DNA of 64,000 nucleotides, taken from NCBI GenBank assembly GCA_028622995.1, contig JAJQJQ010000021.1, positions 682,001 through 746,000 of the forward strand, read 5' to 3'. The translations under genes were made by a program, and so were the position numbers. The notes under the pieces were generated by a model. That model saw only the letters and a list, made by a program, of their open reading frames with translations. It was not told the DNA's origin and ran no database searches. The DNA is from Panagrolaimus kolymaensis (taxonomy: Eukaryota > Nematoda > Chromadorea > Rhabditida > Panagrolaimidae). Positions 1-64,000 of this stretch are shown piece after piece. Within the stretch, counting starts at the first letter, position 1. The number at the start of each line of letters is the position of its first letter.

Positions 1-1557
1 AAGAAAAAAAAGATTGCGAAGAAGATGATTTTGCTACTTTTGCTCTTTTTTGCTTGCTAGTGGCTGCTGGCTGCTGCTATTTTTGTTTGTGGGAACCAAA
101 AAGAAGGAAAAAAATTATTTTGTTTCAATGTTTGTTCGAAAGATTTTGATTTTTTTATGACTTGAATCATCCGGGGTAGTTAGTTAAGTTACTTTTTATT
201 TTTTTTGTTGCTTTAAAAAATTTATGTAAAAATAAAATAAAAAGAATGAGATTCGCTATTGGAATAAAAGGAAAAAAATGCAGTTTACAACAATAAAGGC
301 TAATAAAAAAATTGTTTTATTTTAAAAATGAGGATAATTTTAAAGCTAATTGCATGATAATAATAAAAGCGGATATTAGAAAGAAAATAGTTACTTTCTT
401 TAAAATTAATTTTTCAATAAATTCTTCTTATGCAGTTTAAAATTTAGAAAAAAAACGAAAAGTATCCTTTACAGTTTTCTTCTTCTTCTGATTTTAGAGA
501 TTTGAGTTTCAAAAAGTATTAAAAGACGCACCTCTAATAAATTTCGACTCCAGTTTATTTTTTTTATCTATGAATTACAAATTTTTTAATTTTTTTGTAT
601 AATGCTAAAAATGTGGCTATTATGTCGAAAATTATAAGTGCTATTCAAAAAAGATGTAATAAAACAAAATGCAGTTTATAAATGTTCGTTTTACTAATAA
701 AAAAATAAATCATTTTTTTAAAGCTTCCTACGAATTTTAGCATTACCAGTTTTGATATTCTATTCAAAAAAGAATTATTGCTCACTACCGTAATAATAAA
801 ATGTCATGTACCAAACTTTTTGTCTAATGTTATATTATTCAGTTCGTTTATAAATATGTGAATCATCAACCGCTCAGTTTTTTATAATTTAAAAAATTTA
901 TGTCTTAAATTTTGTTTTTTATCCTGATTCAGTTTTACTTAAAAGCATAGCAAAAAAAATTATTTTTACGTTTCATCTCACGTAAGCAACAAAACTTAAT
1001 TTATAAAAAAACATTTTTGTTTATTCTCAAGTTTTTTTGACAAATACGCAGTTTTAAAATAATGATAAAAAAGATTTTTAATTACTATACCAATGTTTAG
1101 TAATTATATACAGTTTTCAAGTTAAAAATTTTATCCGAAAAAATAGACAAATTTTAAAAATAATCAAAAATTAAAATTTATTTTTAGCATAAAAAATATT
1201 TATTTTCAAAAGTTTTCTTTTTTATGTTTCCGATGAATCCAGTTTAATTCAACCAGAAGAATATTTATTTTACATCACTTACCTTTAGACAATGGTCTCC
1301 CCAGTTTAACTATAAAAATTGATTTAAAAAAAGGTGTAACCAAAAAAGGTGCAAAAGCAAAAACAAAAAACCAAAGTGCAGTTTTTTTTGCCAGGGACAA
1401 AAACTTAGGATAAAAATAAGGGTTTTTTGGGGGGAAAAGTAACAACAATTGGTGCAGTTTAATTAAAAAATTTTTTTGGTCATCACAGAATTTTCTTTTT
1501 TATTTTGTCGACTGAAGCCTGAAATGAATTTTATAAGTAACAGTTAAAAATATTTAC

Positions 1558-4500
1558 CTTCGCAATGAATTTGTGTTGAAGTTTGAGCTTCACCTAAATC
1601 ATTTCGAGCTACGCAAGTATAAGTGCCCGAATCTTCAGCATAAAAATGCAGGATATCAAGTGATACAAAACCAAAATCATGGAAGGTTCGGAATCGATGA
1701 GCTGAAAATAATGGAGATTTAGTATTCAGTTAGAATAAAAAACCGAATTTTTTTTTGTATTTTTATACTTAAAAAATGCTATCTTAATTCCAGTTTTTTG
1801 GCACAAAAAAAATTGAAAAATTCAGTTTTTAATTTTCAAAAATTAATTAAAACGATAAATTATGAGCACTGAATTTAATCCAGGACAGATTTATTAAAAT
1901 CTTAGAAATTTTTGCTTTTATATTTTTATTAACCAAAGATTTAGATGTACAGTTAAAATTTTTTTACTAAAAAATAAAGATAAAGCTAAATGCGCAGTTT
2001 TGAAAAAAATGGAGATCGCAAAAATTATAAAAAAATTAACTCAGTTACATAAAATTTGATAAAAGTTTGGAGCAGTTTTTAAATAATTATTAAAAAAGCA
2101 ACTTAACAAAAGTTAATTATGTGGATATGCAAATCGTAAAAAGATTTGGGCAGTTTTCTTTGACGGAGAGTCCAAAAAAAAAACAGTTAGTTAAAACTAT
2201 AAATCTTTTTATTTGAAAACTCAAAACAATGCTTTCATATAACTATGAAAAGCTAGCTCTTCCTCAGTTTTATAATAAAAATAAATTAAATTAAAATTTT
2301 AATTTTGTCCCATCACAGTTCGAGAAATAATAAAATTGCAAAATTTAAAAAGCAATAAATTAATTTCCCTCTTTGATAACAGAAATTGACAGTTTACTTA
2401 TTTTTTATAATTCTTATTTATGAATCGTCACAAATTTACATAAAATTTTTTGTTGACTATAACAATTCCCAAAAAGAATCTCGCAGTTTTTTTATTACAA
2501 AAAAATTTAATTTTCTTCGACGTTAAAAGTCATCTTGGACAGTTTTTTTTTATCTTCTAAAACAAAAGAGTACAAAATTCATTTGAGAAATAATTCAATA
2601 TTTTTATTGAAAATCTCCTGCAACAAGTGCAATTTGCAAAATCGGTTTTTAAAAGCTTTTCGTACTTTCCAAACTCCTCGAATGATGATGGAATAAAAAA
2701 ACGGCACAAAAATTTGCACAGTTTTCTAAAGAATAAAAATATAATTTTTTTGGATTTTTTTACTCAAAGTATTAAATTTGAAGATTGCAAATTTCAGTTT
2801 ACTTATTTCTTTCTTTTATAAACGGTGATAGCAGCTTTATATTACTACCCCGAAAATTGCTTTTTTAGAAGCTTACAATATTTATTTCCACCATACTTTT
2901 TATATTTTTTACGTAGGCAAGAAAGTGTTATTATGAAAAAAAATTATAATAATTTTTTGTTGATAAAAATCCACCGATTGAGTTCGTCGGCAGTTTATTA
3001 CAAATAATTTTTGGAAAAACTTTCTTTTAGTTAAAAAATAAAAAAAAAATTTTTTGTATCTTTATTTTAAAAAAGATTTAATTTAAAAATATATTAAATT
3101 AAATTTGCTCCCGACATATCACCTTCCGGGACAGTTTTCTTATTGCTCAAAAATATACTAAATTCCATTTTTGCATAGCTTGCAGTTTATTTTATTTTTT
3201 ATAATTAGCTGAAGCTAGAAAACCTGGACATAAAATTTTTTTTGTAGGTTAAAATTAACCAAAAGACAAAGAAACCAGTTTATTTATATATAATTTTTCA
3301 AGTGCAAAAAACCGCACTAATAAAAAAAGAACATATCGCAGTTAAAAAAAGCAAAGAATTTTGGTTGTTGATTTCAACTAAAACATTAAATGTCAAAATT
3401 TTAAGAATACAAATCTTGCACAGATTCGTTAGACGGTTTTTTTACTCCCATAATAAAAAAATTTTAACTCATGAAAGAGATGAATAATGATACAGTTTAT
3501 TTAAAAAAAATTAATCAATCAATATGAAAGATGAAATTAAAATTCTGAATTCAGTTTAAAAATAAAAGCATTGTTTTACCTTGGCTTCTAATTTCGATGA
3601 AAATGAAATTTTAAAAATTATAAATGAAATGTAACTAGATATTTACAGTTTTTTATTACATTAAAAAGTTTAGTTCCTAAACTGTTTTATAGTTCCAAAC
3701 ATTTTTTAAGATTGAAGTTTAATTTAATTTTTGTTAGCGCACTTCTTTTTAATAGAAAATCAAAAAATACCAAAATCGCGCGAAACATTCCAGTTTAAAA
3801 AAATAAATGTTCCTTAATAACTTAATCCCGTACGCGATATCGCCACCAGTTTATTTATTTAAAATTTTAATGCTCATATTTTATTACAAAAGTGCATTTT
3901 TTGCAATTTAAATTCAGTTTTTCAAATCATATAATAAAAAATATTTCCTTACCATGTGGAATAGAATGACCATCTTTAAGCCATTCAATTTTAAGGCTAT
4001 TATCACTCACGGGTTCAACTTTACATTCTAAATGAACCGGTTCACCTTCTTCGATTTCCATTCCATCACTTGAAAGGCCTTGAACAAATTGAGGGCCACT
4101 CTAAAAAAATTAAACCAAATCGTTAAATTTTTGCACAGTTTTTTTTAAGGGTGGAAACGGGACGACTTTTTCCAGTCCCGTCCCGTTTCCACCCTTAGTT
4201 TTTTTAACAAAAAATATAAATATTCTGCCAATCATCAAAGATACCTACAGTTTTTTCAAATTTTTTTTTTGCTTTTTGTACACAGTTTCAAGAAAATAAA
4301 AAACATGAATATTCTGCCGATAATTAAAATAAGCAACAATTTTTTTTAAAAGAAAAAATTGTTTTCTTTGTGGTACTCAGTTTTTAGGGGAAAAAATATT
4401 AGAAAAAAATGCCTAATTTTAAATTCCCCAAAAATTAAAAAAAAGAAGTAGAAGTGGCCAGTTTAAAAAAAAAGTTTTTCTTACTTCGGGTCCATGTTCT

Positions 4501-7500: not shown

Positions 7501-10500
7501 TAGCGAATGGTAATACAGTTTAAAAAAATTATTTTGATTTTATTTTTTTATGAAAATAATGTTAATGATGAACAAAAGCTTTCAGTTAATAAAAAAAAAT
7601 ATTGTTGTCTGCAATGTAAATAATAAACAGCTTTAAAAATATGCTAGTGAATATTTTTTTTACTTTCATCGCATAAATTTATTGAAGGTCGTAGATGAGA
7701 ATAAGTCATCTTTATAAAAATGCTTACAGTTAAAATTAAAAATTTAAATTTATTTCTTTGATACAAGAACGATAGTGTTTTAGATGATTATGCAAAAATG
7801 GCGTATTATTGTTTTTTCGCCCAAAATTAAAAGCAAGGTTAAGAGAAGTGCAGTTTTTTTTTAATTTCAAAATAAAATCTAATATTGCCAAAAAGAAAGA
7901 AGACACATTTATTAATTTTTGTATGAAAATGATTTTTTCACTTTATTCCCCGGTTAAAGATCCTCAGTTAAAAAGAATTTTTCTTTACTCTTTTAATATT
8001 TATCATTCAGTTAATAAAATAATTTAAAAAAATAAATAAAATTTGCTTACCCTCAGGGTGTTGAGGATCCAAATATAAGGTACCCTGTTTTGTTACCACA
8101 AGTTCAAGGCTACTTTGATCTTCACCAATTTCATTTTTAGCTACCATAGTATAAGTTCCACTATCTTCAGGATAGGCATATAAAATATCTAATGCAACAT
8201 AACCAAAATCAAACATAGGTCGGAATCGATGAGCGGCGGGCAATGGGGCTCCATTATGATACCATTGTACGCTCATTTTCACATCGGAGGCAGGTTGAAT
8301 TCTAGCTTCAAAATGAACGGGTTCATTTTCTTCCACTTCCAATTTAGCTGCCAAAGGTCGAACAACCTTTGGAGCTTCAAGGGAATGAAATTCTTCGGGT
8401 CTTTCATATAAAATGGGTCCAATATGAATTTCATGTCCTTCAATAACATTTATTTGTTGAAGCGAATCTTCATGAAGAGGATCAAGTTGTAAAGTTTCAG
8501 TATAAATTGTTGTTAAATTTGCTGATGATTTTGATTCACCAAGGTCATTAATTAATTGACAGCTATATACTCCAGAATCTTCCGGATATGTTGGATGTAA
8601 AGTTAAAGAAACAAAACCAAAATTATGAAAAGTTTGAATTCGATTTGCATTAGGCAAAGGTAAATCATCTTTTAACCATTGAACCCGCAAAGTTGGATCA
8701 TTAATTGGTTGAATTCTCGCTTCAAAATATGATCGACCAAGTTCATCGGGGCAATGATAATCAGAAAGTTGAGTTATAAATTGCGGAGCAGATTTTTGTC
8801 CTTTATTAACCGAATATTGAATATCTCGAACATCTTCAACATCATATCCTTGATTTTCTTTAAGTATATCAGCTCGAGGGTGTACGAGAATGGTCGCCGT
8901 TGTTTCAGCTTGACCTCGTTCATTTGTAGCTTGAATGGAATATAATCCGGCATCAGATAATTGTGATTCAGCAATTGATAATACGACAAAGCCATGTTGG
9001 ATTTGAATTTGAGCTCGATCATCTGGAAAAAATTAAATTAAAAAATTAATATTTTTAGTGAGTTTTTTTCAATTTGAAACAACTGAATAAACTGGGGTAC
9101 AGTTTTATTGTTTTTTTTTTAAATTTTTTAAAAATACTATATTTATGAATAAAATTAGAGTTTTTATTGGAATTTAAAAAGAACTTTAATTACAACAACA
9201 GTGTAAGACGAATTTAAAATATTTCTTTCTCATTCATGCAGTTTTTTTGTTGCTTTTGATAAATTCGCTAACCTAACCCTACAATTTTTTAATATTTATG
9301 TAAAAAGCATGCGCTTGCAAGTTGTAGGGTTGTTGTCAGTTATAAAAAGGAGCTTTATGCAAATAAAAAACGCAGTTTTCCTCGCCTATAATTTAATGAA
9401 GAAAAAATCGTTTTAATTATGATTATTACAGTTTTTAAACTAATTAAAAAAAAATAAAGATTTAAAGGTTTATTATGATGGTTTAAAAGCTATGTCTCAG
9501 TTTTTTTGATCCTTTAAAATAAATAAAGTTCGTTTTTGCTCTGTTTCAAATATATTTTTTTCTATTTTTAATCAAGTAGCAATGATAGACAGTTTAAAAT
9601 TAAAGTAAAATTTTTATAAAACAACAATTTAATTTTTCTTTAAATCGAAAATTCATTTTAACTAGGAACATTCTTAAACTCATTTACATAAAACATCTAG
9701 CGCACGGGAACAAAATAGCTCAGTTTTTATTAATTTATTTTTAATGGAAGAAAAAAGTTCCAAAAAATATTATGCTCCGGACCAGGCCTCTTCCACGGGC
9801 CGGGTTTTGCCGGCCTGGCCCGGCCCGGCCCGTCTTGATTTCGGCCCGGCCCGGCCTGCAGCCCTTTTGGTTTAGGCCCGGCCCGGGCCGGGCCGCGGGC
9901 CGGCCCGTCAATTTTTTTTTTTGCCTTGGTATTCCCTTTGATTTTTTTTCTTTTTTTAGAAAATTGTCGGCCTCGGCCCGGCCTGGCCCGTTCAAAAGTC
10001 GGCCCGGCCCGGCCCGCGGGCCAGGCCGGGCCGGGCCGGGCCGGGCTGGACGGGCCGAAGGAAGAGGCCTGCTCCGGACGTCGCATTTTTTTTTTGTAAA
10101 GTAAAACAAAATTTCTGCAGTTATTTGTTAATTTAAATAAAAATGGATCAACAACTCAGTTTTTATATTAAAAAAAATTATTTCACAAACTTACTTGATT
10201 GAATGGGAGATCCATTTAAGAAAAATTGAATATTTAAATTTTGATCATTAATAGGTGTTAATTTAGTTTCCAAATATAAAGGTTGACCTTCAAAGATTTC
10301 TTGTGAACGTAAATCTTTATGGAAATTTGGCCGATCTATAGCTGGGGCATTTCCAGAAACTCTTGGAGCATTTCCAAACATCATCGTTGCTTTTTGTGAT
10401 TGTTCTTGTTGATATACTGAAGGACTCATTCGACCTCCTCCATCTTGTTGAGATTGAAGGAAGGCATTAACCGAGGGTGAACGATATCCAACAACATCAA

Positions 10501-16500: not shown

Positions 16501-19500
16501 AGCCAAAAAGCCAGCTTTGAATAAAAAGCTTTAGCTATCCATCCTCAATATCTCATTTGCTTGCTTCTTTAATTTCTTTCTTTTTTGTTTTTGATGGATA
16601 ACACTAACGAAAAATCGTTGCTCAATGACAAAAAAAATTAGAGAAAAAAGTAAATTAAAAATATGAATTTTTTTTATTGCGGAAAAAAGTGGTGTGATGG
16701 ATCTAAAAAAAGAAGCTTAATGGAAATCAGTTAAATTTTTTTATGAATCCATTTACTTTTCTTACAATACAGTTTATTCAAAGACAACATGAATTCCGAA
16801 GAATACAGTTATGAAAAGCTTATTAAAAAAATCGAAGTTTTTTGTTGTTGTAAAGTTTTCTGGATTAATATCCCAGAAACACACACTCTTTTGCAGTTTT
16901 AGCTTTTGAATATTATTATAATTACACATAAATAAATTTATAATTAATTTTCCTTTAAAAGACAACTATCCAGTTTGAAAAAAAAACCATTTTTACCCCA
17001 AATAAATTACCCTTTTATTTTTAATAATAATTATTATTGTTAATGAAAAGAAAAAGTACGCAGTTTAAAAAAAAATGAAATATCTGAAAAGCTTCCAGTT
17101 TAAAAACAATTATTTTTAACGGTGACTGAATGATTAATAAAAGTTAGAATTTTGGAAGATTATCGACAGTTTAAAAGAAGCGAATTCTTGTAATTTTCTT
17201 AACGTTAATAAAAGGTTTGGTTCTGTCCATTAAGTTAAAAAAAACAGTTTTTTTCACCCTAAAATTCTATGGTAAAAACTGAGTGCAGTTTCAAATCTAT
17301 CCCTCATCCTCAAATATTTTCAGTTTTTTATTCTTCCTATAATCCATCAAAATGCCATTGGATATATTATTTTCCTTTTTTTTTGTCATCAATTAAAAAT
17401 CCCTTTTTTTATTTTATGAAGAATGAAAGGTGAATAGGCAAGCTTAAAATTTTTTTTGCAAATAAAAAAACAGCTCAAGCTAATCAATGTTTAAAAAAAT
17501 AAATAAAAGAAGACAAAAAAAATAGAGTGGGCAAATGAGACGACTAAGATGAGATCTCTCTCCCACTCTTGAGCTCTCTATCTTGAAGTTTCCTAAACAC
17601 AAATGAAGTGGTTTTTTGTGTGGATGTTGCAGAAAAATGGCTGTATTTGAAGAAAAAAAAGCGACTGAAGAAGCAGTTTTTTGAAATTAAAATTAATAAA
17701 ATCAATAAATGTGATTTATAATAAAATAAGCGAAAAAGAAAATCCTAAATTTTCAAAATTATTGTGAAGACTCATTTTAAAAACAAAGCTTCGTTGCCGT
17801 CAACTTTTTAAAGAATGCAGTTTAAAAATATTTTTTTGCGCAAAACAAAGAAGTCAAAAACTACTGAAAATAGATCCAGTTTTATATCATAAAGTTGCAC
17901 TATGTGTTTCGGTTACAAAAAAGGGCAAAGTAAATAGCTTAGAAATATTTATTTTTAATATATTTGTTTTTAAAGATGAGAAAAGATGCATAGTTTTACA
18001 ACTAACATAAAGCAGTAGAGCACAGTTTAAATTTTTATGGATAAAAAAGGTCCAAAAAAGGCATTTGCTAAGTCAGTTAATTTATTTAAAAAAAATGCTT
18101 TTCAACAAAATTGGAAACAGTTTAAAAAATCTGAAAAATGTGTATCAGTCATAAATTTTCTTGGAGTTAATAAATAAATAAGATAAATTAAAATTTTGAT
18201 AAACTAGTAAATGAAGACATACCAAAAGAAATCAGTTTATAAAATTTTTTTAAAAGAAACAAAAAACGGAAGAAAAAAAACATAATTAATGTATTGGGTG
18301 ACATTATTTACATTAGATAAGAAATTTATTTTCGTTGGGCAACAACAGTTTTTTAAAGCTCCAAATTTCTTAATTACGCCCCTCATTTTTTTTTATTATC
18401 AACCACAAATAACAAACTAAACTTTTGATATTAAAGTTAATCCCCAACAACCCTGTCAGTTTAAAGATTTTTTACATTAAAAATAAATAAATATCAAACT
18501 GATCATTCTTTCTTCTTTTTTTTTCTCAATCCTACGTTTGTTTCGTCAACATCCATCCATCCCTCTCATTTTCTTCTTCATTTCATTAAAGGTTTACATA
18601 TCTTCAAATACGTGCCCTCTCGTCAGCAGGGTTTGGCGGAATTCCGCTTTTTCCGTGCAAAAAAAGCGGAATTCCGCGGAATTGCACGGGAAAAAGCGGA
18701 ATTCCGCCAAACCCTGCTCGTCAGTTTGTCCTCCTTCCTCTAAAAAGCTTCCTATCCCTGTCATACATTTTTTTAAGCATTTTCACCTTCGCTTTTGCTT
18801 TCAACCATTTGTTCTTTGTTTTTTTTTTATTATCTTCCTTTTTTTCTTTTCTTTTTTGTCTTTGCTTTTTTTTCAAAATCCGAGGCTGCTGCTGCGGTGG
18901 TGGCGGATTTGTTTCTTTTTGAGATTGCATTGCGTTTATCCGTGCAAATTAAGCCTAAAAAAATCCACCCGCATCTTTCAGGCATTGATACCTTCCTTCC
19001 CCGCCTTTATTTTGAATATTTTCTCTTTCTTCCTTTTTTTTGCATAATAAAAAAAGTTTGTTTAAACCCTTCGATTTTTTTTTGAGGTACATAGGTGCAA
19101 TGGCGATTGATGACGATCAACAAAAAGAAAGGAAGATGTGTTTGCTCTCCTCATCGTTAAAAAAAGGTTTCTAAACAATTTGGAATCATAATAAAAAAAA
19201 TAAAAAAATACATAGGTATTAACGACTTTGATTTTTTTTATGAGGCAAAAAAAAGGGAGAACAACTGTTTTTTTTTTCTCTTCTCTTTGCTTGTTTCATT
19301 GGTGGCAAAAAAAGCAAACAACCGATGAAACGAGGTAGAAAGCATCCGTAAAAAAATGATAATAAAAAATTTGTGTTGCTGCTTACATAGAGACAAGTAT
19401 TGGAAGAAGAATGGGGGCGGATTTGATGAGAGATTTGAAAAATAAAAAATGGAGAAAAAAAGGTGAGAATATTTTGATTATATTCTTTAACCTTTTTTTT

Positions 19501-27835: not shown

Positions 27836-27837
27836 TG

Positions 27838-27840
27838 CTG
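27838..27840 (-). promoter_or_regulatory. 3' splice acceptor 2 bases before the kettin start codon (trans-splice or 5' UTR intron)
   Basis: On the minus strand TTATACAG is followed by CA and then the ATG at 27835. The acceptor fixes this ATG as the likely start. A 2-base leader suits spliced-leader addition, but a conventional 5' UTR intron reaching a promoter near 31-32 kb would look the same. Confidence 0.55.
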
Positions 27841-27887
27841 TATAACCTTTTTTGTTTGTTTGTATTTCGGTTTTTTATAAACTTGGC

Positions 27888-31744: not shown

Positions 31745-31766
31745 GAAAGTTAGTTAACTAACTTTC
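31745..31766. repeat. Perfect 22-bp palindrome in motif-free island
   Basis: The sequence centred on GTTAAC reads the same on both strands for 22 bases (GAAAGTTAG and its complement around the centre). It lies in the presumed kettin promoter island and could bind a dimeric regulator. Confidence 0.45.
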
Positions 31767-45000: not shown

Positions 45001-45545
45001 CATACGCGTAACAATGTTCAGTTATAGCTTTTATAGAAACTTTTTTTTCAAAGCCTTGGTAACGCTCTTAATCAAGTTTATCAAAAATTAAGAAAATGAA
45101 AATTTAGAAAAATATCATAAAAAGTTTCTTTTCGATTCAACAAAATTTAACAAGTTTTGATACTCAGTTTACATGAAAAATAAAAAATGTTACATTTTTA
45201 CAAGCAAGTTAAAATATATTACAACAAAAATGGCAAAGAAACAGTTTTTTGATACCATTCTTTCGTTAAACCTGAGTACAGTTTTTTTGCAAATTATAAC
45301 TAAATATTGTTTATTTCGCTTAAAAATTATGTCAGTTTCTTTAAAATTAACTTTAATAAAAATGGGTTTTCGTTGAACTTAATAAATGATGATTTTCTTT
45401 TATTTTGTTGCTAAACGAATTTCCCATATTTAAAAAAGAGTTATCTTAAGTCTATCACGCTTCTTCCCAGTTTTAAAAACCACTGAAATTTTGATTTAAA
45501 AAATGGGATAAAAAAATAGCAAGAACGAAAGTGCTTCCAGTTTAA
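40060..45545 (+). repeat. CAGTTT motif array, block 4
   Basis: The motif runs through the EF-hand gene's 3' flank, its intron 42557-43957, and the interval 44301-45557, in plus orientation. Around 44400-44560 there is a motif-poor patch with a possible donor (CAGCT|GTAAGTAA at 44525-44532, minus strand), perhaps a 5' UTR exon of the EF-hand gene. Confidence 0.75.
42096..44300 (-). CDS. Calmodulin-like EF-hand protein with Ser/Asn-rich N-terminal extension, ~249 aa
   Basis: Exons 44300-43958, 42556-42336 and 42281-42096 join in frame (phases 1, 0) to a TAA. The first ~95 residues are low-complexity (SMSTGSSGGNNNN). Four EF-hands follow: loop 1 at about 113-124 (DADRSGAIGLDE, canonical), loop 2 at about 149-160 (DKRGNHQIDFDE, degenerate), loop 3 spanning the second intron (DRSESGLITRKD, Asp not Glu at position 12), and loop 4 (DVDSDGFIDYDE, canonical). 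It should bind calcium at loops 1 and 4 and act as a sensor or troponin-C/centrin-like regulator; the target is unknown. The start is uncertain: a stop codon lies just upstream and a possible splice acceptor (CTGAG) overlaps, so more N-terminal sequence, perhaps the Ser-rich frame at 45.6-46.1 kb, may be spliced on. Confidence 0.82.
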
Positions 45546-45557
45546 AAAATAAATTTA

Positions 45558-46088
45558 TTATATAAAAAATAAACAAACCCTAATAGTAGCAGCTAATAAG
45601 CTTCTACCACTTGACATGGTTCCTCCACCTCCTCCAGTTGCAGAATTATTATTATCTTTTTTATTTCCACCGCTGAATCGTCTTAAACTCATTTGTCCAG
45701 CTGATAATCGACTGCTCATACTTCGCTTTCCATGATTATTACTAATATTAGCGTTTTGATTATTTGGAGTTGCGGATTTTGGAGGTAATAATAATGAAAG
45801 CTTTCTTCGGGTGTTTGGAAAATCTAGAGTCATAAATTTTGTTACTCCACTTGAAATAAAAGCGGAAGTTCGCGATGGAGATGGAGTTTTATTTGTATTT
45901 CGAGATACAGAAGAAATTTTTCGAGATGATGGAGATGGAATTTCTATTGTTATACTATTATTACTTCCATCTTCATCACTTGCTACTTCTTCAACAGATG
46001 CAGCAGCTGTGAGAAGATTTGTTGGGGATAAACTTGATGAAGCGGCAGCGACAGAGGCAGAGCCGGAAGTTGCAAAGGGTTCAAGCAT
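45558..46088 (-). CDS. Ser-rich basic protein or 5' coding exon of the EF-hand gene
   Basis: From the ATG at 46088 (MLEPFATSGSASVAAASS) the frame runs 170 codons to a good donor AGG|GTTTGT at 45579/45578, or 176 codons to a stop at 45558 if unspliced. The protein is rich in Ser, Asn, Arg and Gly, with SPSPSS/TPSPSR phospho-like motifs, an acidic patch (EEVASDEDGS), basic segments (NTRRKLSLLLPP, SSRLSAGQMSLRRFSGG) and a Gly run. No known domain is recognised. CAGTTT motifs are absent from it and resume directly downstream. The phase-0 donor does not fit the phase-1 acceptors at the next exon; a weaker GTAGAA donor inside the frame would. I therefore keep it separate. Confidence 0.55.
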   Translation of the reverse strand: MLEPFATSGSASVAAASSSLSPTNLLTAAASVEEVASDEDGSNNSITIEIPSPSSRKISSVSRNTNKTPSPSRTSAFISSGVTKFMTLDFPNTRRKLSLLLPPKSATPNNQNANISNNHGKRSMSSRLSAGQMSLRRFSGGNKKDNNNSATGGGGGTMSSGRSLLAATIRVCLFFI

Positions 46089-47208
46089 TTTGTTTTTAGA
46101 ATTACAAAACAAATGAAGGAAGCGTTCTTTAGATTGTCTTTATTCCCACAAAATTTTTATAGACAGTCGCCGCAAAAGTTTTGTTTTTTTGAAATTTCAA
46201 AGTTGTTAACAGAAATAAAAATTAACAGCAACAAACTAATACCACCAAAAAAAGTAAATGACTTTCTTCCAACAATAAAAAAATAATAATGCCGCAGCTG
46301 ACTTTTTCTTTTAGTCCTTTTTATGGAAGGCGGAAAGTGGAAAGAAAAGGCTGCTTTTCCATTTTTCCAGAAGAAGTTGGTAGCGTTATTACGCTTCAGC
46401 TGTTCCTTCATTCCTCTCTCATTTCTATGCTTTGCGTGCAAAAAAAAAGGAAAAGACAATCGATGCAAGTAAAAGCAGCAGAAAAAAGGGAGAAATGCCA
46501 TATCTTTTTTTTATGGAGTGCCTCAGCCTTAAGAAAATGTAATGTATGTATGTTGTTGTCACCAAAAAATAAATGAGCCGTAAAACAAAAACAAAAAGAA
46601 AGATGACAGAAGTTGAAAGAGAAGTTTATGACTTTTAAAGAAAAGAAAAATCGGCATATCGAAAGTTGTCATCAAGAAGTCATCAAGAAGGGTTTATATG
46701 GCAATTTTCAAAAAAATTTTTATTATTATTTATGATTCAAGAAAGAAAAAAAGAATAGAAAAGTAAAGTAAAGATGCAGTTTTGAAAAACTCAAAATAAA
46801 AATAACATAAAAGTGTCGCATAGAAATAAAAAAAAATGAAGGTGAAAGTAAAACCCAAAAAGCAACCATGGCTACCAAGGTAACCAACCATCCAAATAAA
46901 TATATAACAAAATCTGTGAAAGAAGCTTTTGTTACTAATTTGGTTGCAAAGAAATATGGTGAAGAAGAAAAAAAGTAAAGTAAAGAGAGAAAATGGAAAA
47001 TATAAAAATGAAAAAAAGTAAAGCAGTTGATTATTCGAAGCTTTACTTTGCTTTGAAAAAAAATACTCTCAAGAAAAACAAACATTTCACATTTTTTTAA
47101 ATATCTCGAGATTTTTCTTTTTATATTTGCTTTTATTTGGGTTTGAAAACAAAAATATACAAAATAAATATCAATAAATTGAGACACGTATTTACAAAGA
47201 GTTTAAAT
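46089..47208. other. Motif-poor intergenic region between Ser-rich and Met-rich genes
   Basis: About 1.1 kb with at most one CAGTTT (46776). It holds GA/AAG-rich tracts and short direct repeats such as GTCATCAAGAAG twice at 46667-46690. It probably contains the promoter of the Ser-rich gene and the 3' UTR of the Met-rich gene. A 153-codon open frame on the minus strand at 46726-47187 is Phe/Tyr-rich and not protein-like. Confidence 0.4.
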
Positions 47209-47763
47209 TTATTTTCGTCCAAAAGTGGGAGAAGTAAGACGACCTCCAGATTGAAGCCCAAGGTTTGATGGATAACCATTCATCATTGGATTCATTTGGT
47301 TCATGCCTCCCATCGTCATGGGATTCATGCCGTACATCGAAGTCATTGGGTTCATTGGGCTCATCCCGGACATTCCAGTAATTGGGTTAAATCCAGACAT
47401 CATTGGATTTGTCATTGGATTCATGGAATTTATTGTGTTCATGCCAGGCATTCCAGTAAGTGGATTAATTCCATACATGGAAGTCATAGGATTCATGAAA
47501 GAATTGAATCCCATTGGATTCATGGCGGCAGTCATGGGATTCATTCCATACATTCCACCTCCTGATTGAAGAGGGTTCATTCCAAGCATGGCTTGTTGCT
47601 GTTGTTGCTGTTGTTGTTGTCCCATAGGATATCCACCAAGATTGTTAAACATTGGATTGGTGGCTGGTGTACCATACATAGCTGCTGGATTAGCAATATT
47701 TTGACCAAAAACAGCCGATGATGTTAAGGCAAGAGCCAAAATAGCAAAGCGGAAGAAAACCAT
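47209..47763 (-). CDS. Secreted Met/Asn/Pro/Gly-rich repeat protein, 184 aa, intronless
   Basis: A single exon from ATG 47763 to TAA 47209. Residues 1-20 (MVFFRFAILALALTSSAVFG) form a clear signal peptide with cleavage before Gln21. The mature protein has a run of nine Gln and then irregular repeats of MNPMT, MYGMNPM and GMNPL, with almost no charged residues until the basic end (SPTFGRK). This is a low-complexity secreted protein, perhaps a structural, cuticle, gland or eggshell component; no family is recognised. A TATA box sits about 80 bases upstream, and the absence of introns suggests high tissue-specific expression. It lies in a region nearly free of the CAGTTT motif. Confidence 0.85.
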   Translation of the reverse strand: MVFFRFAILALALTSSAVFGQNIANPAAMYGTPATNPMFNNLGGYPMGQQQQQQQQQAMLGMNPLQSGGGMYGMNPMTAAMNPMGFNSFMNPMTSMYGINPLTGMPGMNTINSMNPMTNPMMSGFNPITGMSGMSPMNPMTSMYGMNPMTMGGMNQMNPMMNGYPSNLGLQSGGRLTSPTFGRK

Positions 47764-47838
47764 TTTTGTTAGTTTTTGAGTAGTTAAAAGAAATAACAGT
47801 TGATTGAAAAACTGATGTTAATTGAAAAATCCAAAACT

Positions 47839-47847
47839 CCTTTTATA
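47839..47847 (-). promoter_or_regulatory. TATA box of the secreted Met-rich gene
   Basis: The minus strand reads CTATAAAAGGAG here, about 76-84 bases before the ATG at 47763. This is a textbook TATAAAAG, predicting initiation near 47810 and a ~50-base leader. Confidence 0.65.
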
Positions 47848-48294
47848 GTCATTCGGAAATGTAAGCATCATTGTTTAAAAAATCTATAAAAGTCACTTTT
47901 TAAAATCAAAAAACATGTTTTTCATTTTTTCATATCCGTTCTTCGATAAACATTACAAAAATTAATGTTCATAATAATTTGCACAAGCTTTATAAAAAAG
48001 AAGCAATGTTATTTGTTTGATTAGCTGCAAATTTGTACTTCCTATTTATATGTTTCCATAACAATGTTGTTGTTAGACAATATTAACCATTATGACCAAC
48101 TTTAATATAATCATCAAAAAAGCAAAAGATGAAACATGTATTATTAAAAGACAATCATAAAATGGTAAGAAAATATTCAAACTTTTACAGTAACGTTCGT
48201 AAAATAAAAGAATACATAGAAACAAATTTATAGACAAAAAACAAAATTACGATAACAAAATCAAAAATAAAGAACAACACATTGTAAATCAGAA

Positions 48295-49389
48295 TTATTC
48301 ATTCTTCCTCTTCTTTGCAGCAGGTTTTTCAAAAACAGGTCGCATTCCAGCAGCATTTTTTGATACAAATTTTTGATTTAATTGATTTTCAGAAGCCCAA
48401 ACACCTTGATGATCAGTCGTATCTTCAGCAGTTAAGTGCGTCCATTTAGTACGGTTAGCTTTTCCAAAATTTTTGACCTGAAAGAAAAAAGTTAAAAAAA
48501 ACTCTTAAGAACAAAACTACAAACATACCTGCATGATTTTAGGTAAAATAGTTTTATCAATATCATCTTCAGCAGTAGCTTCAGCATAATTACGTTTGAA
48601 AATTTCATCATCTTCATCCAAAAAGAAAGCACCTCGATGATAATACTTTTGTAAGAACTTGTATTTTCCTTTATCTTGCTTATTTGTAATGAATTTAGGA
48701 TTAGCTGATCGGTAAGCCTCTCGTTCTTCTTCAGTCATGTTATGAACCTTTTCAATTTCGTCCAATTCTTTAGCTCGAGCTTCTCTTTCATCTCGATTTC
48801 TTTTTAGTCGTTTGATTTCCCGTACTTTCCAAACTTCATAACCAAGTTCGTCACTTTCGTCATCAGTAATTACAGAAGCTAAATCAATACTTTCTTCTTT
48901 CTTTCGCTTTTCTGCTTCAAATTCTTTGAGTTTCATATCTTCAATCATTGCAACAGTTTGTTGTTTTCTTTCAACTTTTCTTTTTTGTTCTTCTAAAGTT
49001 ATTCTGGCAAGCTCTTCTTCTTCCTTTTTTGCATCTGTTAAAGTCACTCGATCGTTCATCTTCACGAAGATTGGTTTCAGCATGATTTCTTCTTCACTTT
49101 CCTCCTCGCTTGATTCTTCGGAGTCTTCTTCATTCATCACCATTTCTTCTTTTTCACGCTGAAAATAAAAATGGCGGATTCGATCTCGACGTCGTTCCAT
49201 AGCATCGTCGTCATCTTCATTTTCTGCTTCCTTTTCAGCTGGAACATCTTCATCTAAAGCGCGTCTTTCACAAGCTCGTCGTCTTCTTCTTTTCAGCGTT
49301 TCTTCATCATCAGAATCTGTCCATGGAGCAGCATCATCTTGTAGTTTTCCGCCAGTAAATTTGTTGTAAGTTTCATCAGATGACGACAT
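48295..49389 (-). CDS. mfap-1: MFAP1 homologue, spliceosomal B-complex protein, 2 exons, 347 aa
   Basis: Exons 49389-48529 and 48477-48295 join in phase 0 to a TAA. The protein is highly charged. It has an acidic N-terminal region with PWTDSDDEE and [10 protein letters not shown], an acidic Ser/Glu stretch ([20 protein letters not shown]), a long Glu/Lys helical part, and then the MFAP1 block ([59 protein letters not shown]). The C-terminus, [20 protein letters not shown], ends [19 protein letters not shown]. From family knowledge it is a nuclear component of the activated spliceosome that joins tri-snRNP factors. At 347 aa it is shorter than the human protein (about 440), mainly in the N-terminal half. 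The start follows a splice acceptor by 16 bases. Confidence 0.95.
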
Positions 49390-49404
49390 TGCGGTGAATA
49401 GTAC

Positions 49405-49407
49405 CTG
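49405..49407 (-). promoter_or_regulatory. 3' splice acceptor 16 bases before the MFAP1 start codon
   Basis: The minus strand reads CCTTTTTCAG and then 15 bases to the ATG at 49389. The distance is typical of spliced-leader addition in nematodes. It supports MSSSDET as the start rather than the open frame that continues upstream to 49455. Confidence 0.6.
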
Positions 49408-51751
49408 AAAAAGGTTTTCGTTAATATACATATAAAAACGTTGTAAATTGCACAAAAATTTGAAAGCACGTCAATTTTTATTTCATCATTGCATTCAGAA
49501 ACGAATACTCCGATGAAAGTCGAGAAAATCATGGTTTAAAAAATATGTTAGAAGCTAAAAAAAGCGTTTATGAAATAATGTTTCCATGAATGCGTAAGCA
49601 AAAATAAACTAAATTATTCGCTAATTATTAATTTATAAAATCAAGAAGTTAGTCGGAAAAAAAAGGGAAATGAACAAACACGAAAGAATGATTGACGAAT
49701 GCTGGAAATAAACAAAATAACGGAATTTTGGCAAACTGCGTTTCAAGATTCGCATATGTTTTGAAAGTACAATGGCATGTATTAACAAAAAATATTGTAA
49801 GTAAAAAATAGTTTAATGCTTCCAATGTTTTGATTAAAACAATTTACTCAATCTTTTTTTCCACGCTTTTTTAAAACTATGGTGGACTTTCCTTTAACCA
49901 TTTTTTTTACTAATGATTTCTCCAACTTTTATACACAGGCTTTAATTTTATTTGCCTCTTTTCAAAATGACAGTTTTTTCTATTACCTTTTTTATAAATG
50001 AGCGATAAAAATGTTGAAAATGTTAAAAAGATATATCTTTTATCCTTTCGATCATCTGCTGAACTTATCGGGGATTTTTTTCACCGACTTTTAAGGAAAA
50101 TTTTCTAAATAAAAATATATTTTTACAGTTTTGAATGATTTTTTTACTGATTAATATATTACAGTTTTTTCGTCTCATAATTCTTTCGAGTAAATATGCT
50201 CGTTGCAAAGACAGTTTTTTTTGAATGCTTAAAAATTTATTATAGAAACAACTCAGCTCAAAACATATTTAAAAAAAAAACTAAAATATAAAGAAAAAGT
50301 AATAATAACAGAATAAACTAATTTGAAGACTAAAAGTATAAAAATAATTTCGAGCGAATTGTTGGTGAAAGATAAAAAAAGAAAAGATTTTAAAAAAATA
50401 TAATAAAATTCTGATTAATAAAATACGAAAAAAAGAAATTCAGTTTAAAAAATAAAAGATTTGAGAAAAGAGTTTTGTTTCTCTTTTTTTCTAGTGTTTT
50501 TGCAGCGTTGGTTTGTTGATTTTTTACACAAATTTCAGGGGCGTGAAATTGTGTAAAATTATTGATTATTGATTGGTTGAAGATTGTTTTTGGTATTTTG
50601 GTATTTATGAATGGAGTTTAAATGGTCCGCAGTTTTGATTTAATATAATAAAAAATACAATATCCACCATTTTGAGCAGCAAAAATAATAAAATTGATGG
50701 ATGGTAAATTCTTTTTTGAGGTCATTGCATTTTTTTACCATAAAAAAAATTTGTTGGTCGTTGTTGTAAGAATCACACTTATCAAAATTTGGATGGGAGT
50801 TGAGCAGCAAATAAATAATAAACTTTGATAAATGTGAATAAATATTTTTTAAAGTTTTGTTTGTATAAATAATTGAAATATGATGTTATTATAAAAAGCA
50901 GTTTTTATGTGATCCAAGCATTTTGTAAATAAAAATGATGGTAAATTTTGAGCAGCAATATACAAAAGCTTGAAACAAAAAAAATTTCGTTATGTAGTTT
51001 AATTTGACCATAAATAAATAAATCATTATCCATTTCAGTTGAGCAGCAAAAATATTTTAATGAATAATAAAAATTACAGCCAAAATTGAAAAACCAATTA
51101 TTTTCAAAACTTTTTGGTTTTTTTTCTTCGACGACAACAGTTTTTTTTAATCAAATAAATTCCATTATCATAAAATCACTTTTAGACATAATATTTTTAA
51201 GTTGAAAAATAAAGATTTTGAATCATTGAGCAGCAGTTTTTTGATTCAAAAATAAAAATATTAATAAAAATTTCCATAAATCTATATATAGTTTGTGGTT
51301 TCAAATAAATCCATTTTTTTCTTGTTTAGTTTTTTGGTTTTTTGATTCAACATATGGTCTTTTGGTGTTTTTTTTTGGTTATAGGATAAATGAGAGACAA
51401 GATAAGACAAAAATATATACAAATAAAATAAAAAAATATAAATCTATGTTTCGTGGGATAAGTTTAAAGAAAAATCAGTTTAAAAATGCGACAGCTTTTA
51501 AAAAGAAAAAGCGTCGTTCCTTGCCTACAGTTAATAAAAAGAAAAACTAACATCTAAAAAGACCTAACTAAATTCTAAATAGAGATAAAAAAAATCTAAA
51601 TATTACAATAAAAAAAATCGTTTTAAGACATTTTCGAAATAAATAATTTTCGAAATAAAAATATTGGAGAGTTTAATAATATCAAATTATAATTAATTAA
51701 TTAATTTTAGAGAAAAAGATTTTGATATCTCAATTTTACTCAGTTTTTTAT
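49408..51751. other. Intergenic/3' UTR region between titin-like gene and MFAP1
   Basis: About 2.3 kb. CAGTTT is sparse (for example 49971, 50126, 50163, 50213). The part nearest the titin-like stop codon holds the TTGCTGCTCA repeats and is likely its 3' UTR. The part near MFAP1 should hold that gene's promoter. No further gene is seen. Confidence 0.4.
50674..51236 (-). repeat. Five copies of TTGCTGCTCA in the presumed 3' UTR of the titin-like gene
   Basis: The plus strand carries GAGCAGCA at 50674, 50802, 50950, 51041 and 51228, each preceded by T and followed by an A/T run (the last reads GCAGCAG). Read in the sense of the gene this is TTGCTGCTCA, 520-1080 bases beyond the stop codon at 51752. 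Such conservation in DNA this AT-rich is unlikely by chance. Candidate roles are a miRNA or RNA-binding-protein site. Confidence 0.6.
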
Positions 51752-54700: not shown

Positions 54701-57700
54701 AAAAATATTTTTAGGTTGATCTACTTTAAAAATTAGCATATCTCAGTTTTATGTTTACCTTCTAAAAAAATATTAATTTCAAAAACTTAAACTAGATTAT
54801 TTTTTAATAAGTAGCAACAAGCTTATTTCTCACCTCACAAAAAACATGACAGTTTTAATTTAAAATTTTGAAAACAATAACAAAAAAGTTGGAATCTCAG
54901 AATGCTCAGCAGTTAAATTTACTTTTCCCATTCCCGATCGAGACAGTTTTTAAATGATAATAACATAGGTCGAGATGGGCTGGGGATCCCCATTCCCCTC
55001 CCTCCTCTCGAAAAAAAAATATAACGTAAAAATTTTTTTTCGATGTGGTAAGAATGAAAAAAAATTTTTTTCGAAAAAAAACAACGTATAATTAATTACC
55101 TTACCTTTTTTGACCCCTTCCTGCCCCTCCCTCGAAACCAGCCCTTTATCGAGGTATGTGATAATATCAAATTGAAATAAAATTCATAAACAATATCTTT
55201 TTTGGATTTACTTTTCCCTTACCCAGTGTAATCCAGTTTCATAAAAAAATGTTTTATTTTTACAAACAAATTTTAATTTCAATTCAGTTAATTCAAGAAT
55301 ATAAATATTGTTTTTAATTTATTTCAGTTTTTTCTTCTAAAATATTATATTTAAAAAAGACCTTTTAAAAAATTGTTTAATTTGTTTAACAGTTTTATTA
55401 TTCTAAAAATAACCAAAAAAAACTTTGCACATTGGTCAACAGTTTTTATTGATAATTCCTATTTCATTCATATCTGCCAGTTTAAAAAAAGCCCATAAAA
55501 AAATAAATACTTACCACTAATATGTAAATCAATATAGCATCGACTGACGCCATATTTATTTTCTGCGATGCAAACATATTCGCCCGAATCTTCTGGGAAT
55601 GCATTATTGAGGGTTAAAATAGCATCTTTTCCATTTCTTGAATATTTAAAACCAATGGAATCATGAATTTGAATTTTATTTTGAATCCATCGAATATTTA
55701 TTGGTTCAGTGCCTTCGATGATTTCAGCTTTAAGTTCAATCTTTTCATTTCCATCTGTGACAATTATTTTTAATTTTTGTTTGGGATTTAAGAATTTTGG
55801 TGGAAGTCCATCTTTCTCAAGAATATTTTCGGGTTTTTCTATTTCTAAATTCATTTGAGTTTGAGTATTTCCAGCTGAATTTTCTGCAACAAATGTATAT
55901 GTTCCAGCGTCGGCTGGAATTAGACTATCAAAATTAAGGGTTCCACATTCGCCATCATAAAACATGGAATATCGACTTTTGGGTTGAGGAATCAAAGTTA
56001 CACCATTTCGAAGCCATTGAATTTTGGGAGCTGGATATCCAGTGACCGAGCATTCCAGGGATAAACTTTCTCCAGCTTTAGCTTTCATTCGTCCAGGCAG
56101 AACCTCGATGAACGCGGGTTTAATGGATTCTCGACGCATACGTTTTTTAAGTTTATCTATCATTGAATTAGAATTATTAGTTTTTTCAATTTCTATTTCA
56201 GAAGTACAAATTTCCATTCCTTCTGAATTTGTAGCAGTGCAATTATAAAATCCTTGATCATAATTTGAAATATGATGAACTTCAATATAATAAAAATCTC
56301 CATCATTATATATTGAAAATTTATTTCCCGTTTCTAAAATCGTTCCATCTCGATCCCATTGAACTTGAGGAATTGGATTTCCACTCAACGCGGCTTTGAG
56401 GCGCAAAGATTTAAATTCTTCAATGGATTTTTTGGGTTTAGGTTTCACCAAAAATTTGGGGCGACAAATTTTTTTATTTCGATTTATTATAGCTTGTCGA
56501 ATTTCATCCAAAGTTGTTGTGGGTGTTGTTGTGGTTTCAGTTTTTTGTTTTCTTGGACTTTTGGGACTTCTAGGAGATGATGGAGAAGCCATGGGGGAAT
56601 TTGGTTGAGAACTTCCTCCACTTCCACTTCCATTTTCATCATTTTTATTTAATTTTGCGATAATTGCATCTTTAAGTGATTGGGGATCTTCTCCACCATG
56701 TCGATGCCCTCTTCCTTTTTTAGCTAATTTTCCTGCCACCGCAGCTGTATCGCCAGCTTTTAAATCCATATCTGCTAATCCAATAACGAAAGTCGGGGGA
56801 GCACCTTTCTTTTGAATTAGTGATTTAATTCGCTTTGGATCATTTGGAGAAAGGGGTCCATGATCTTGATTTTCATCGGTTGCTTTTCTTTTCGTTGAAG
56901 ATTTTGGAGATTGCATTGATAAAGGTTCAGAATAAATGAGAGATTGTGAAATAATTGGTTCATCCACTTCAATTTCATGAAACTTTTGTTCACCAATCAT
57001 AAGTTGAGCATTAGTTCGAACTATTCCATGAATATTTCTTGCTTCAACTGAATATCGACCAATGTGAATCATGGATGTTGATGGAATTGTAAGTATTGAA
57101 AGATTTGATGAAGGATTTGTAATCTGAAAAAAAAAATCTCGAATTTTTTAAACTTAAAACAGTTTAACAAAAAATATTTATTTTCAGCGTCCTTCTTTTG
57201 TACTCAGTTTAAAATTATATGTATTTTTTGGTGGAAGATAAAATTTCCAGCCACTTATGTATACTCCTGCCAGTTTAAATCTTTTATAATTATTTTTTTT
57301 TTGCTTTGGCAACAACGTTTTTTTCGAAGAAAAAAAAGAAGATATTGTATATCGTTTACAGTTTTCTAAAAAAACACTTAAACAAAATAGTGGAATGTTC
57401 AGGAAGTTGGAAATATTTTAAGAAAAAAAATTCTGAATCGTTTAATAAAACATAAAATTATAATCTTTGTCAAAATAAACTCAAGACAGTGATTTTTTTT
57501 TTATTGATTGTAAAGTGATGAAGCACCCCCGAAATTACGCTGCCGTCAGTTTTTTTAAATAAATTATTAACTTTGTTTTTTAGATTAAAGAAACCTATCC
57601 CAATATTCACAACGCATTTTATAACAAATATTGAAAATTTTTGACTTGATTCAGAGACGACAGTTTAAAACTTTTTATATATTTTAATTTTGCAATTAAA

Positions 57701-63700: not shown

Positions 63701-64000
63701 TTTAAATTCAAATATGCCTTTTTATTGTAGAAATAAAAAATCATCTCCAACAGATTTTTTCTCGATTAAAAAGTTTTACAAAGTAATTAAAAACAATGTG
63801 CGCTCTAAACAGTTTGATAAATTATTTAAAAAATATATATTTCCTATATCGGAAGAATTTCTGATAAATATGCCACAGTTTTTATATGAAATTAAAAATA
63901 TTATTATGGTTTTATACAAAAAACTTGATTGCTCAATTGCTGTTTTTTTCCAAATTAAAATTTATTAAAAATATAAAAATAAGAAACTTACGTTCAATAT
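51752..64000 (-). CDS. Titin-like giant muscle protein, C-terminal 12 Ig domains and tail, 5' part outside window
   Basis: Exons: end of one at 64000-63992, then 61783-60821, 60361-59588, 58761-58250, 57123-55515, 53736-53415, 53335-53049 and 51843-51752 (TAA). Every join from 61783 down keeps phase. Twelve intracellular-type Ig domains follow one another (3+2+2 with one split by an intron, 3, 1, 1), each with the C-strand Trp and a DxGxY-type motif. No fibronectin type 3 or kinase domain lies in the window. Linkers include SQRSRSPSPTRKPKAP, a Pro/Glu stretch (PLPSPPPEPEPSTPEQTP) and a long basic/Ser-rich insert in the 57-kb exon (PSSPRSPKSPRKQK). The tail reads GSTAALRSPRSPHAPTIHHQ and ends KPTKKH. 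It is probably TTN-1-like; twitchin or obscurin cannot be excluded because the kinase region is not visible. Confidence 0.85.
51910..52003 (-). other. Possible alternative terminal or cassette exon of the titin-like gene
   Basis: A 94-base segment with acceptor TTTTATAG|C and donor AT|GTATGTG. Entered in phase 1 from the exon ending at 53049, it stays open for about 30 codons and stops with a TAA just before its own donor. Inclusion would therefore replace the C-terminal tail encoded at 51843-51752. It lacks CAGTTT, unlike the flanking intron. It could also be a chance pair of splice sites. Confidence 0.3.
54964..55160. mobile_element. Probable ~200-bp MITE-like insertion
   Basis: Imperfect inverted ends (GGTCGAGATGGGCTGG at the left; CCAGCCCTTTATCGAGG at the right) enclose CCCCTCCCTC-rich segments near both ends and a GAAAAAAAA centre. 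CAGTTT units stop at its borders and resume outside, as expected for an insertion. Confidence 0.45.

Follow-up and report, generated by a model that had tools for sequence, protein, structure and literature searches.

A 64,000-nucleotide stretch of the genome of Panagrolaimus kolymaensis (called the window below), a nematode that we take to be triploid and to belong to clade IV, is filled with repeated units in which a variable 20-nt box stands directly upstream of a conserved core, CAGTT[T/A], itself followed by an AT-rich stretch from +6 to +24. A preliminary description had seen here a bare short word; the repeated thing is this unit of at least 26 bp, box and core. Each unit may be a tiny small-RNA gene of the - strand, reading AAAC followed by UG-N19-20, with tens of thousands of its kind gathered in superclusters, a proposal that we hold with slightly less than even confidence.

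The carpet in the window

The + strand of the window carries 434 CAGTTT and 92 CAGTTA, the - strand 16 and 7, that is, 526 CAGTT[T/A] against 23, and no 6-mer of the window differs more between strands than CAGTTT. With the two strands summed, 549 CAGTTW compare with 84.5 +/- 8.3 in 100 dinucleotide shuffles, the largest value being 108. The carpet as first seen is confirmed: an estimate by eye had given 500-600 copies, and both strand bias and excess over chance stand, even though the chance level then proposed (15-20 per strand) was too low, an order-1 model built from the window expecting 35.9 CAGTTT and 21.6 AAACTG. The placement is non-coding, as had been claimed, with 506 of the 526 copies outside predicted coding segments (50,512 nt) and 20 inside them (28 segments kept out of 31, three doubtful ones being dropped; 13,488 nt). 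Rfam at gathering scores and a tRNA scan gave no matches in the window. The main features are as follows:

281..63992, + strand: carpet of 526 CAGTT[T/A], each the right-hand end of a candidate unit (box, core and tail)
8010..9032, - strand: region of Ig (I-set) exons in a large muscle-type protein, to which the motif is antisense
34017..36891, - strand: exons of a zinc-dependent alcohol-dehydrogenase-type gene (N-domain match above the Pfam cut-off, other domain below), carpet in the introns
42324..42662, - strand: EF-hand exon
45640..49970, no strand: stretch poor in the motif, with five CAGTT in 4.3 kb, surrounding the MFAP1 gene
48517..49470, - strand: MFAP1-like gene, which served to find homeologs
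55471..57147, - strand: Ig (I-set) exon region

The median distance from copy to copy is 78 nt. A mere 8 of 505 neighbour distances are shorter than 29 nt, against 104 expected by jitter, which sets a minimum spacing of about 29 nt; as to periodicity of this spacing, the window displays a weak peak near 11 nt only. Copies are found in intergenic DNA as well as in introns and, elsewhere in the genome, on either strand relative to predicted genes, which speaks against a splicing signal; and what units share is limited to the core and a few weak single positions, which speaks against a transposon or other interspersed repeat. On these two points the initial opinion agrees with the data.

Anatomy of a unit

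The box is GC-richer (.28 vs.20), and the tail beside the core is AT-rich. One unit may serve as an example, with its substitutions relative to two homeologous haplotypes, C23 and C5:

16874..16893, no strand: 20-nt box (-20 to -1), one substitution vs C5, none vs C23
16894..16899, + strand: conserved core CAGTTT (AAACTG on the - strand), one substitution vs C23, none vs C5
16900..16918, no strand: AT-rich stretch, +6 to +24, a composition established on all units
16874..16895, - strand: RNA predicted by the model, 5'-UG-N20, 22 nt (21 if it ends at -19)

Along the unit, C or A is weakly preferred near -20, -10 and 0, about 10 bp apart, and these weak fixed positions were found again in 248 units of other patches. 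They invite a reading on the + strand: a minigene would start at the CA-like -20/-19, with the box as its first 20 nt or so, and CAGTTT plus tail would signal a pause or termination, leaving a precursor of about 25-28 nt. The initiator-like preference does lie at a fixed distance from the core, the precursor would come near 28 nt, and a GC-richer box followed by an AT-rich tail matches the signature of pausing reported at nematode piRNA loci (PMC6436959). But the 5' end would be loose (at -20, A.38, C.26, T.28, G.07), with no standout nucleotide, unlike known guide RNAs, and T is not preferred at -17, where a YRNT start would favour it; we regard this reading as decidedly doubtful.

Divergence across three haplotypes

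Aligned with the window over 55,482 (C23) and 58,583 (C5) of its 64,000 bases, the two homeologous haplotypes reveal a strong contrast. The core is substituted at.031 (C23) and.044 (C5), box positions -18 to -1 at.155 and.223, the flanks at.071-.077 and.097-.118; the box changes about twice as fast as the flanks, and its limits are defined to within one or two bases. A paired test of each box against its own flanks, covering gap-free units (257, 207 and 122 of 526), found the box higher in 121 vs 71, 144 vs 45 and 85 vs 30 units. Two fast boxes illustrate the process:

19984..20003, no strand: 7 of 20 positions changed relative to C23 and to C5, with core 20004-20009 identical in all three haplotypes
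23575..23594, no strand: 6 of 20 positions changed relative to C23 and to C5, with core 23595-23600 identical in all three haplotypes

The box rate is 1.3-1.7 times that of fourfold sites, taken from 15 chosen exons, and it is higher for A<>T changes too (.105 vs.064, p 7e-5). All unit rates come from this one 64-kb locus, and at a locus free of carpet the divergence is.034-.061 in the two stretches that have no long open frame and.025-.033 at fourfold sites; given these values it may be that the box is just neutral and the flanks are slow. Both observations count against minigenes.

A neutral box would suit a purely DNA-level element, in which a protein complex sits on the core with contacts at -10 and -20, one and two turns of the helix away, and the box is an unconstrained spacer within AT-rich DNA that is itself constrained, for example for chromatin structure. 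We find it unlikely. The 10-bp step of the weak preferences, the lack of overlap between units and the patch-wide orientation would fit, but a spacer fails to explain rates above those of fourfold sites, A<>T changes included, and leaves a GC-richer box of RNA length unaccounted for. Nor has the window any 10-bp A/T periodicity, AA/TT autocorrelation staying at or below.026 at lags 8-60 with no series of peaks. The same values dismiss PATCs, the periodic An/Tn clusters in which A/T runs recur about every 10 bp.

Gaps are also raised in the box (.034 and.043, vs.021-.031 in the flanks), together with every class of substitution. Local hypermutation would do just this: damage or mis-repair of the 20 bp beside the hexamer would make of the box a scar zone, not a guide. 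The spectrum, however, is near strand-symmetric (C>T.061, G>A.061; A>G.025, T>C.035), and the conserved core, the GC-richer box and its fixed weak positions are left unexplained, so that we can hardly give this idea any credit. Boxes swapped by gene conversion were dismissed as well, the 65 units inspected showing mostly scattered point differences rather than exchanged boxes. Among fourteen control words, twelve have no box. TAGTTT shows a box-like rise vs C5 only (.151 vs.080-.100), and CAGT[ACG] vs both haplotypes (.110 vs.039-.057 and.124 vs.066-.082); these sites are perhaps decayed units. The core kept across three haplotypes, the minimum spacing and the fixed internal layout all favour the early proposal of hundreds of functional units, which is supported; the early interpretation as a whole is supported in part.

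Distribution and orientation in the genome

Sampled stretches of the genome range from about 10 motifs per kb down to background. Matches to a strict pattern fall mainly on a few contigs (30 of 38 on six), those on C3 and C5 being confined to 7.4-9.7 and 0.3-2.5 Mb. The units gather in Mb-scale superclusters, at least two of them, and to speak of a genome-wide carpet was too generous. A rough total, about 7e4 units in the triploid assembly or 2.4e4 per haploid set, follows when background is taken from the first 100 places on C1 (3.4 Mb) and CAGTTTW8 is counted as present in 271 of 859 units. That string occurs 30,327 times in the assembly; its reversed control (10,998 and 16,472) was left unused because it is large and strand-unequal.

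Orientation is shared by 23 of 26 neighbouring matches within 50 kb, a count that excludes the lone C5 match at 7.0 Mb. It belongs to the individual patch, tens of kb long, and not to the whole genome: the single orientation described at first holds for the window and its homeologs and gives way elsewhere to patches pointing the opposite way. Nor does it follow gene strand. In the window and at L008, L040 and L041 the motif runs antisense to predicted genes, but it is sense at L033 and, on a weak match, probably at L036 (L007 and L042 yielded no coding prediction), and this mixture leaves no gene-strand rule; the coding model having been trained on the window's own exons, gene strands outside it are predictions. 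Independent genes would not be expected to share their orientation over such distances, and this co-orientation counts against minigenes. It would come naturally if each patch gave a single long precursor from one strand, processed into small RNAs by a cut at every hexamer in the manner of fly one-strand piRNA clusters, as the 526 to 23 imbalance and the agreement between neighbours might suggest. Yet the patch crosses several genes and the DNA between them, and GC-richer boxes, AT-rich surroundings and minimum spacing look like separate units; a common precursor seems very improbable to us.

Candidate small-RNA genes

The minigene reading that we prefer is backed by the contrast between a conserved core and a fast, sharp-edged box outrunning fourfold sites, by the GC-richer box beside an AT-rich tail, and by recurring weak positions, minimum spacing and superclusters. 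Transcription, strand, RNA ends, Argonaute, target and tissue we infer from the DNA. AAACTG, the hexamer on the strand opposite CAGTTT, would fix the 5' end of the RNA directly after the AT-rich stretch, and the 20 nt that follow it on that strand would be the guide. The mature RNA, 5'-UG-N19-20, would thus be 21-22 nt long, begin with U and end at the box edge (-19/-20). The tag would be kept while guides are free to change fast, in tens of thousands of units per worm, whose most likely task would be to silence, in the germline, foreign RNA such as that of transposons. Counting against a reading on the - strand, the GTTT of the core, common to Ruby and SNAPc sites, lies in the + reading.

Papers report that Piwi was lost in clade IV, and that motif-driven piRNAs were lost in nematodes outside clade V and plectids. 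With 143 Piwi-domain matches, Argonautes are many in this genome. A sponge Piwi C-terminus found 40 matches (best 50.5 bits, 26% identity), and no Piwi-clade Argonaute was detected with this single distant query, used without a nematode PRG-1 as positive control. Since no Piwi was found, the RNA would be loaded on one of the many non-Piwi Argonautes.

How the germline is guarded in nematodes devoid of motif-driven piRNAs would become, with tag-marked candidate guide genes, a testable question. These candidates are visible and countable in a culturable worm, and one small-RNA library would be enough to test them. A conserved tag beside a box that outruns fourfold sites would make guide evolution readable from DNA alone, and co-orientation over tens of kb poses a new puzzle, that of how such genes arise or are transcribed.

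Comparison with known systems

In their way of working the units would resemble the type I (Ruby-motif) piRNA genes of nematodes, yet they do not belong with them, since motif and layout differ; nor was a Piwi detected with the one sponge query. The type I (21U-RNA) genes also comprise thousands of motif-marked short units in introns and intergenic DNA, forming in Caenorhabditis elegans Mb-scale clusters, with a conserved motif and a GC-richer body beside AT-rich DNA (PMC6436959). Non-coding intronic or intergenic location and Mb-scale clustering are found in the carpet too. Its core, however, is CAGTTT, not CTGTTTC: neither CTGTTTCA nor GTTTC makes the unit core, and the 64 kb hold 4 CTGTTTC and 4 GAAACAG for 3.5 expected. 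The carpet's variable box touches the core, whereas the Ruby motif sits some 40 nt from the piRNA. Type I loci are also marked by a capped precursor of about 28 nt and a 21-nt RNA with 5' U. From +30 to +60 downstream of the core there is no signal of rate or composition beyond what neighbouring units would give, hence nothing comparable to the Ruby-type layout (motif, gap, RNA downstream on the same strand); composition and rate depart only across -20 to about +24. Furthermore, the piRNAs of Pristionchus pacificus lie sense or antisense to their genes with about the same frequency, in contrast with units co-oriented over tens of kb.

Strongyloides ratti, also of clade IV, has no Piwi and makes 21-22U RNAs with a 5' monophosphate from two clusters of 1 and 2.7 Mb in AT-rich surroundings, and their length and 5' U equal those predicted from the carpet (U+G+N19-20); but these RNAs have no reported upstream motif, come from overlapping loci on both strands and are in many cases transposon-derived (PMC9203780). 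Motif-less and overlapping, they count against minigenes; overlap on the same strand is not a trait of the carpet, as its minimum spacing attests. SNAPc-type snRNA promoters offer another parallel. One element recurs in six U2 upstream regions of the same genome, some 45 nt ahead of the gene; it ends in [TC]GTTTTG and has GTTT in common with the carpet core. These promoters are without CAGTTT, and the carpet is without a variable box some 45 nt downstream. Fly one-strand piRNA clusters keep a uniform orientation over tens of kb and are not known to have a fixed-tag unit structure; orientation, the sole feature compared, is alike, while the carpet has tagged units. A literature search, mainly outside subscription papers and bioRxiv, yielded no description of the motif. 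We are evenly divided between accepting and doubting that the carpet is a Piwi-independent counterpart of piRNA genes, newly made or retained by a clade IV lineage that lost Piwi: about twenty thousand hexamer-started minigenes per haploid set, gathered in superclusters, with guides that would evolve faster than synonymous sites and be served by other Argonautes.

The carpeted region and its genes

The carpet formed by copies of the core, CAGTT[T/A], is real and strongly patterned. The preliminary description had proposed an excess of the motif on one strand, placed in noncoding DNA, and both claims held: CAGTTT occurs 434 times on one strand versus 16 on the other and CAGTTA 92 versus 7, far over shuffles, while 506 of the 526 + strand copies lie outside predicted coding segments. 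The window has 31 predicted coding segments in total, every one on the - strand; among them are Ig (I-set) exons and genes for an alcohol-dehydrogenase-type protein, an EF-hand protein and MFAP1. Features of the window are as follows:

About 4147-4196: an almost perfect inverted repeat around AAGGGTGGAAACGGGAC, noticed by visual inspection
9730-10155: island with few motif copies, its frames translating to Pro/Ala/Gly/Arg-rich repeats and therefore GC-rich in a window of 27% GC
45640-49970: surroundings of MFAP1, where the carpet is sparser
47209-47817, - strand: small Met/Gly/Asn/Pro-repeat protein of a local multigene family, with relatives (67-86%) on contigs C5, C20, C23, C275 and C432
48517-49470, - strand: MFAP1-like exon, best matched by an ENA protein (79% identity over 72%), then by proteins of Panagrellus (69%) and Halicephalobus (67%), over 58-59%

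A second MFAP1 gene lies outside the carpet in three copies, with 85-86% DNA identity to 48517-49470. MFAP1 is presumably broadly expressed; carpets may avoid active housekeeping genes.

The source nematode, which we infer to be the parthenogenetic Panagrolaimus kolymaensis and take to belong to clade IV, was searched across 265.8 Mb in 807 contigs. PMC10374039 describes the genome of this species as triploid and of 266 Mb. Two close homeologs of the window's MFAP1 region lie on C23 (91%) and C5 (90%).

Architecture of the unit

When all 526 copies are aligned, composition shifts abruptly at position -20. The box from -20 to -1 is richer in GC than its flanks (.28 versus.20); about 18 very AT-rich positions follow 3' of the core, and upstream beyond -21 the DNA is just slightly AT-rich. 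At -20, G is avoided (.07) and C favoured (.26); the other weak positions are -19 (A,.47), -10 (G low,.08) and -2 (A low,.21). They stand out again among 248 units taken from patches of C20 and C3 elsewhere in the genome (-20 C.31, G.04; -19 A.50; -10 C.22, G.06; -2 A.21). Units keep clear of one another: of 505 distances between neighbours, 8 are below 29 nt, versus 104 with jittered positions (lowest of 500 trials, 81).

Distribution and orientation in the genome

The strict pattern CA-N18-CAGTTTAAAAATA occurs at 38 places genome-wide, versus 6 for its reversed control. Thirty of these are on C3, C5, C18, C20, C23 and C42. Four more, on small contigs, have exactly the boxes of matches on C42 or C3, and four lie elsewhere; on C3 all matches fall within 7.4-9.7 Mb and on C5 within 0.3-2.5 Mb. 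C3 and C18 have identical boxes in common, C5 and C20 boxes that differ by one base, and a stretch of C3 (L008) has homeologs on C18 and C40. Superclusters therefore number two or more, one comprising C5/C20/C23 and another C3/C18/C40, with C42 assigned to neither. Inside them the carpet is patchy. Among eight 10-kb samples beyond the window's homeologs one was fully carpeted, three partly and four not at all, at least two of these four being probably outside the superclusters; a 6-kb and a 4-kb sample, both picked at pattern matches, were carpeted as well. Among neighbouring 14-mer matches on C3 and C5, orientation is shared by 23 of 26 less than 50 kb apart, by 13 of 20 separated by 50-100 kb and by 6 of 16 separated by 100-500 kb.

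Some observations stand apart. Haplotypes differ by 9-13% of aligned bases in the window and 13-18% at L008, versus about 1-6% at the non-carpet MFAP1 locus (C5, C20, C23 and C3, C18, C40 compared with C15, C16, C69). W8TTTGAC, the reversed control of another pattern, CAGTTTW8, is unequal between strands genome-wide (10,998 and 16,472), perhaps owing to a tandem repeat. Adjoining a carpet patch, an open frame with zinc-knuckle-like CXXC motifs (L036, 62-1405, - strand) looks Gag-like by eye.

A stable core beside a changing box

Core and box evolve at distinct rates (Table). Of 444 alignable sites in C23, 374 retain an intact CAGTT; in C5, 385 of 475 do.

Table. Substitution relative to the window
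Class: versus C23; versus C5
Core:.031;.044
Positions -18 to -1:.155;.223
Flanks:.071-.077;.097-.118
Noncoding DNA distant from every copy:.059;.082

Adjusted for composition and relative to the flank, the rate is 1.6-2.2 at -18 to -1, 1.4 at -20 and 1.2 at -19; core positions have 0.2-0.6, and the remaining positions are mostly at 0.8-1.4. Within units, boxes exceeded their own flanks in 121 versus 71, 144 versus 45 and 85 versus 30 cases for three haplotype pairs (ties 65, 18 and 7), and a box-like rise was absent around 12 of 14 control words. Substitutions per box are much more uneven than binomial (134 of 346 boxes unchanged versus C23), partly because haplotypes are nearly identical in places. 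The spectrum is close to strand-symmetric, which argues against one-strand damage.

Fourfold sites at the carpet locus differ by.119 and.144, and the box rate is 1.3-1.7 times theirs, varying with the pair. A<>T changes, informative because base-composition selection cannot explain them, are also in excess in the box (.105 versus.064, p 7e-5). At the non-carpet MFAP1 locus, however, divergence is.034-.061 in the stretches lacking long open frames and.025-.033 at fourfold sites; noncoding DNA can thus outpace fourfold sites, and the box could be neutral with slow carpet flanks. Whether neutral or faster, a box of exactly 20 nt is distinct from its surroundings.

Comparison with known small-RNA systems

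In the literature searched, largely without subscription papers and bioRxiv, we found no earlier description of the motif. Of the 15 U2 matches, six were compared in their upstream stretches, and these have an element in common, GTTCATGGTGTGTC[TC]GTTTTG, from which one or two deviate slightly; this long shared element, which extends further, is usable as an snRNA promoter signature of the worm. It has GTTT in common with the core and may echo it, four letters being no proof. The Ruby motif is thought, according to PMC6436959, to derive from SNAPc sites.

At least 143 genome matches to the Piwi-domain model make Argonautes plentiful. A sponge Piwi C-terminus gave 40 matches, the top one of 50.5 bits at 26% identity and the highest identity 40% across 57 residues, with no nematode Piwi as control. 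We read the set, from such resemblances, as AGO- and WAGO-type without Piwi, in agreement with the loss of Piwi that PMC4323106 and PMC6436959 report for clade IV.

If RNA began at -20/-19 on the motif strand, the unit would resemble an initiator with a pause site downstream, a layout comparable to that of nematode piRNA loci as presented in PMC6436959. In our judgement the opposite polarity is the likelier one: RNA starting at AAACTG on the - strand would have a well-defined 5' end, a need of guide RNAs, and would consist of U, G and 19-20 nt, hence 21-22 nt with a 5' U. Co-orientation might, as a guess, prevent double-stranded RNA between neighbouring units or reflect a single long precursor.

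The length and 5' U predicted for RNA read from AAACTG are those of a class in Strongyloides ratti, also of clade IV, made from two clusters, one of 1 Mb and the other of 2.7 Mb (PMC9203780). Its loci differ in that they overlap and that PMC9203780 found no motif upstream of them; we therefore claim no identity with the carpet units. With nematode piRNA genes the units share, at the DNA level, a conserved tag, a fixed-edged variable box of RNA size and a minimum spacing, and the carpet as a whole shares noncoding placement and superclusters. Judged from this organization, the units, while falling outside that class by its membership tests, are probably a small-RNA gene system functionally like nematode piRNA genes.
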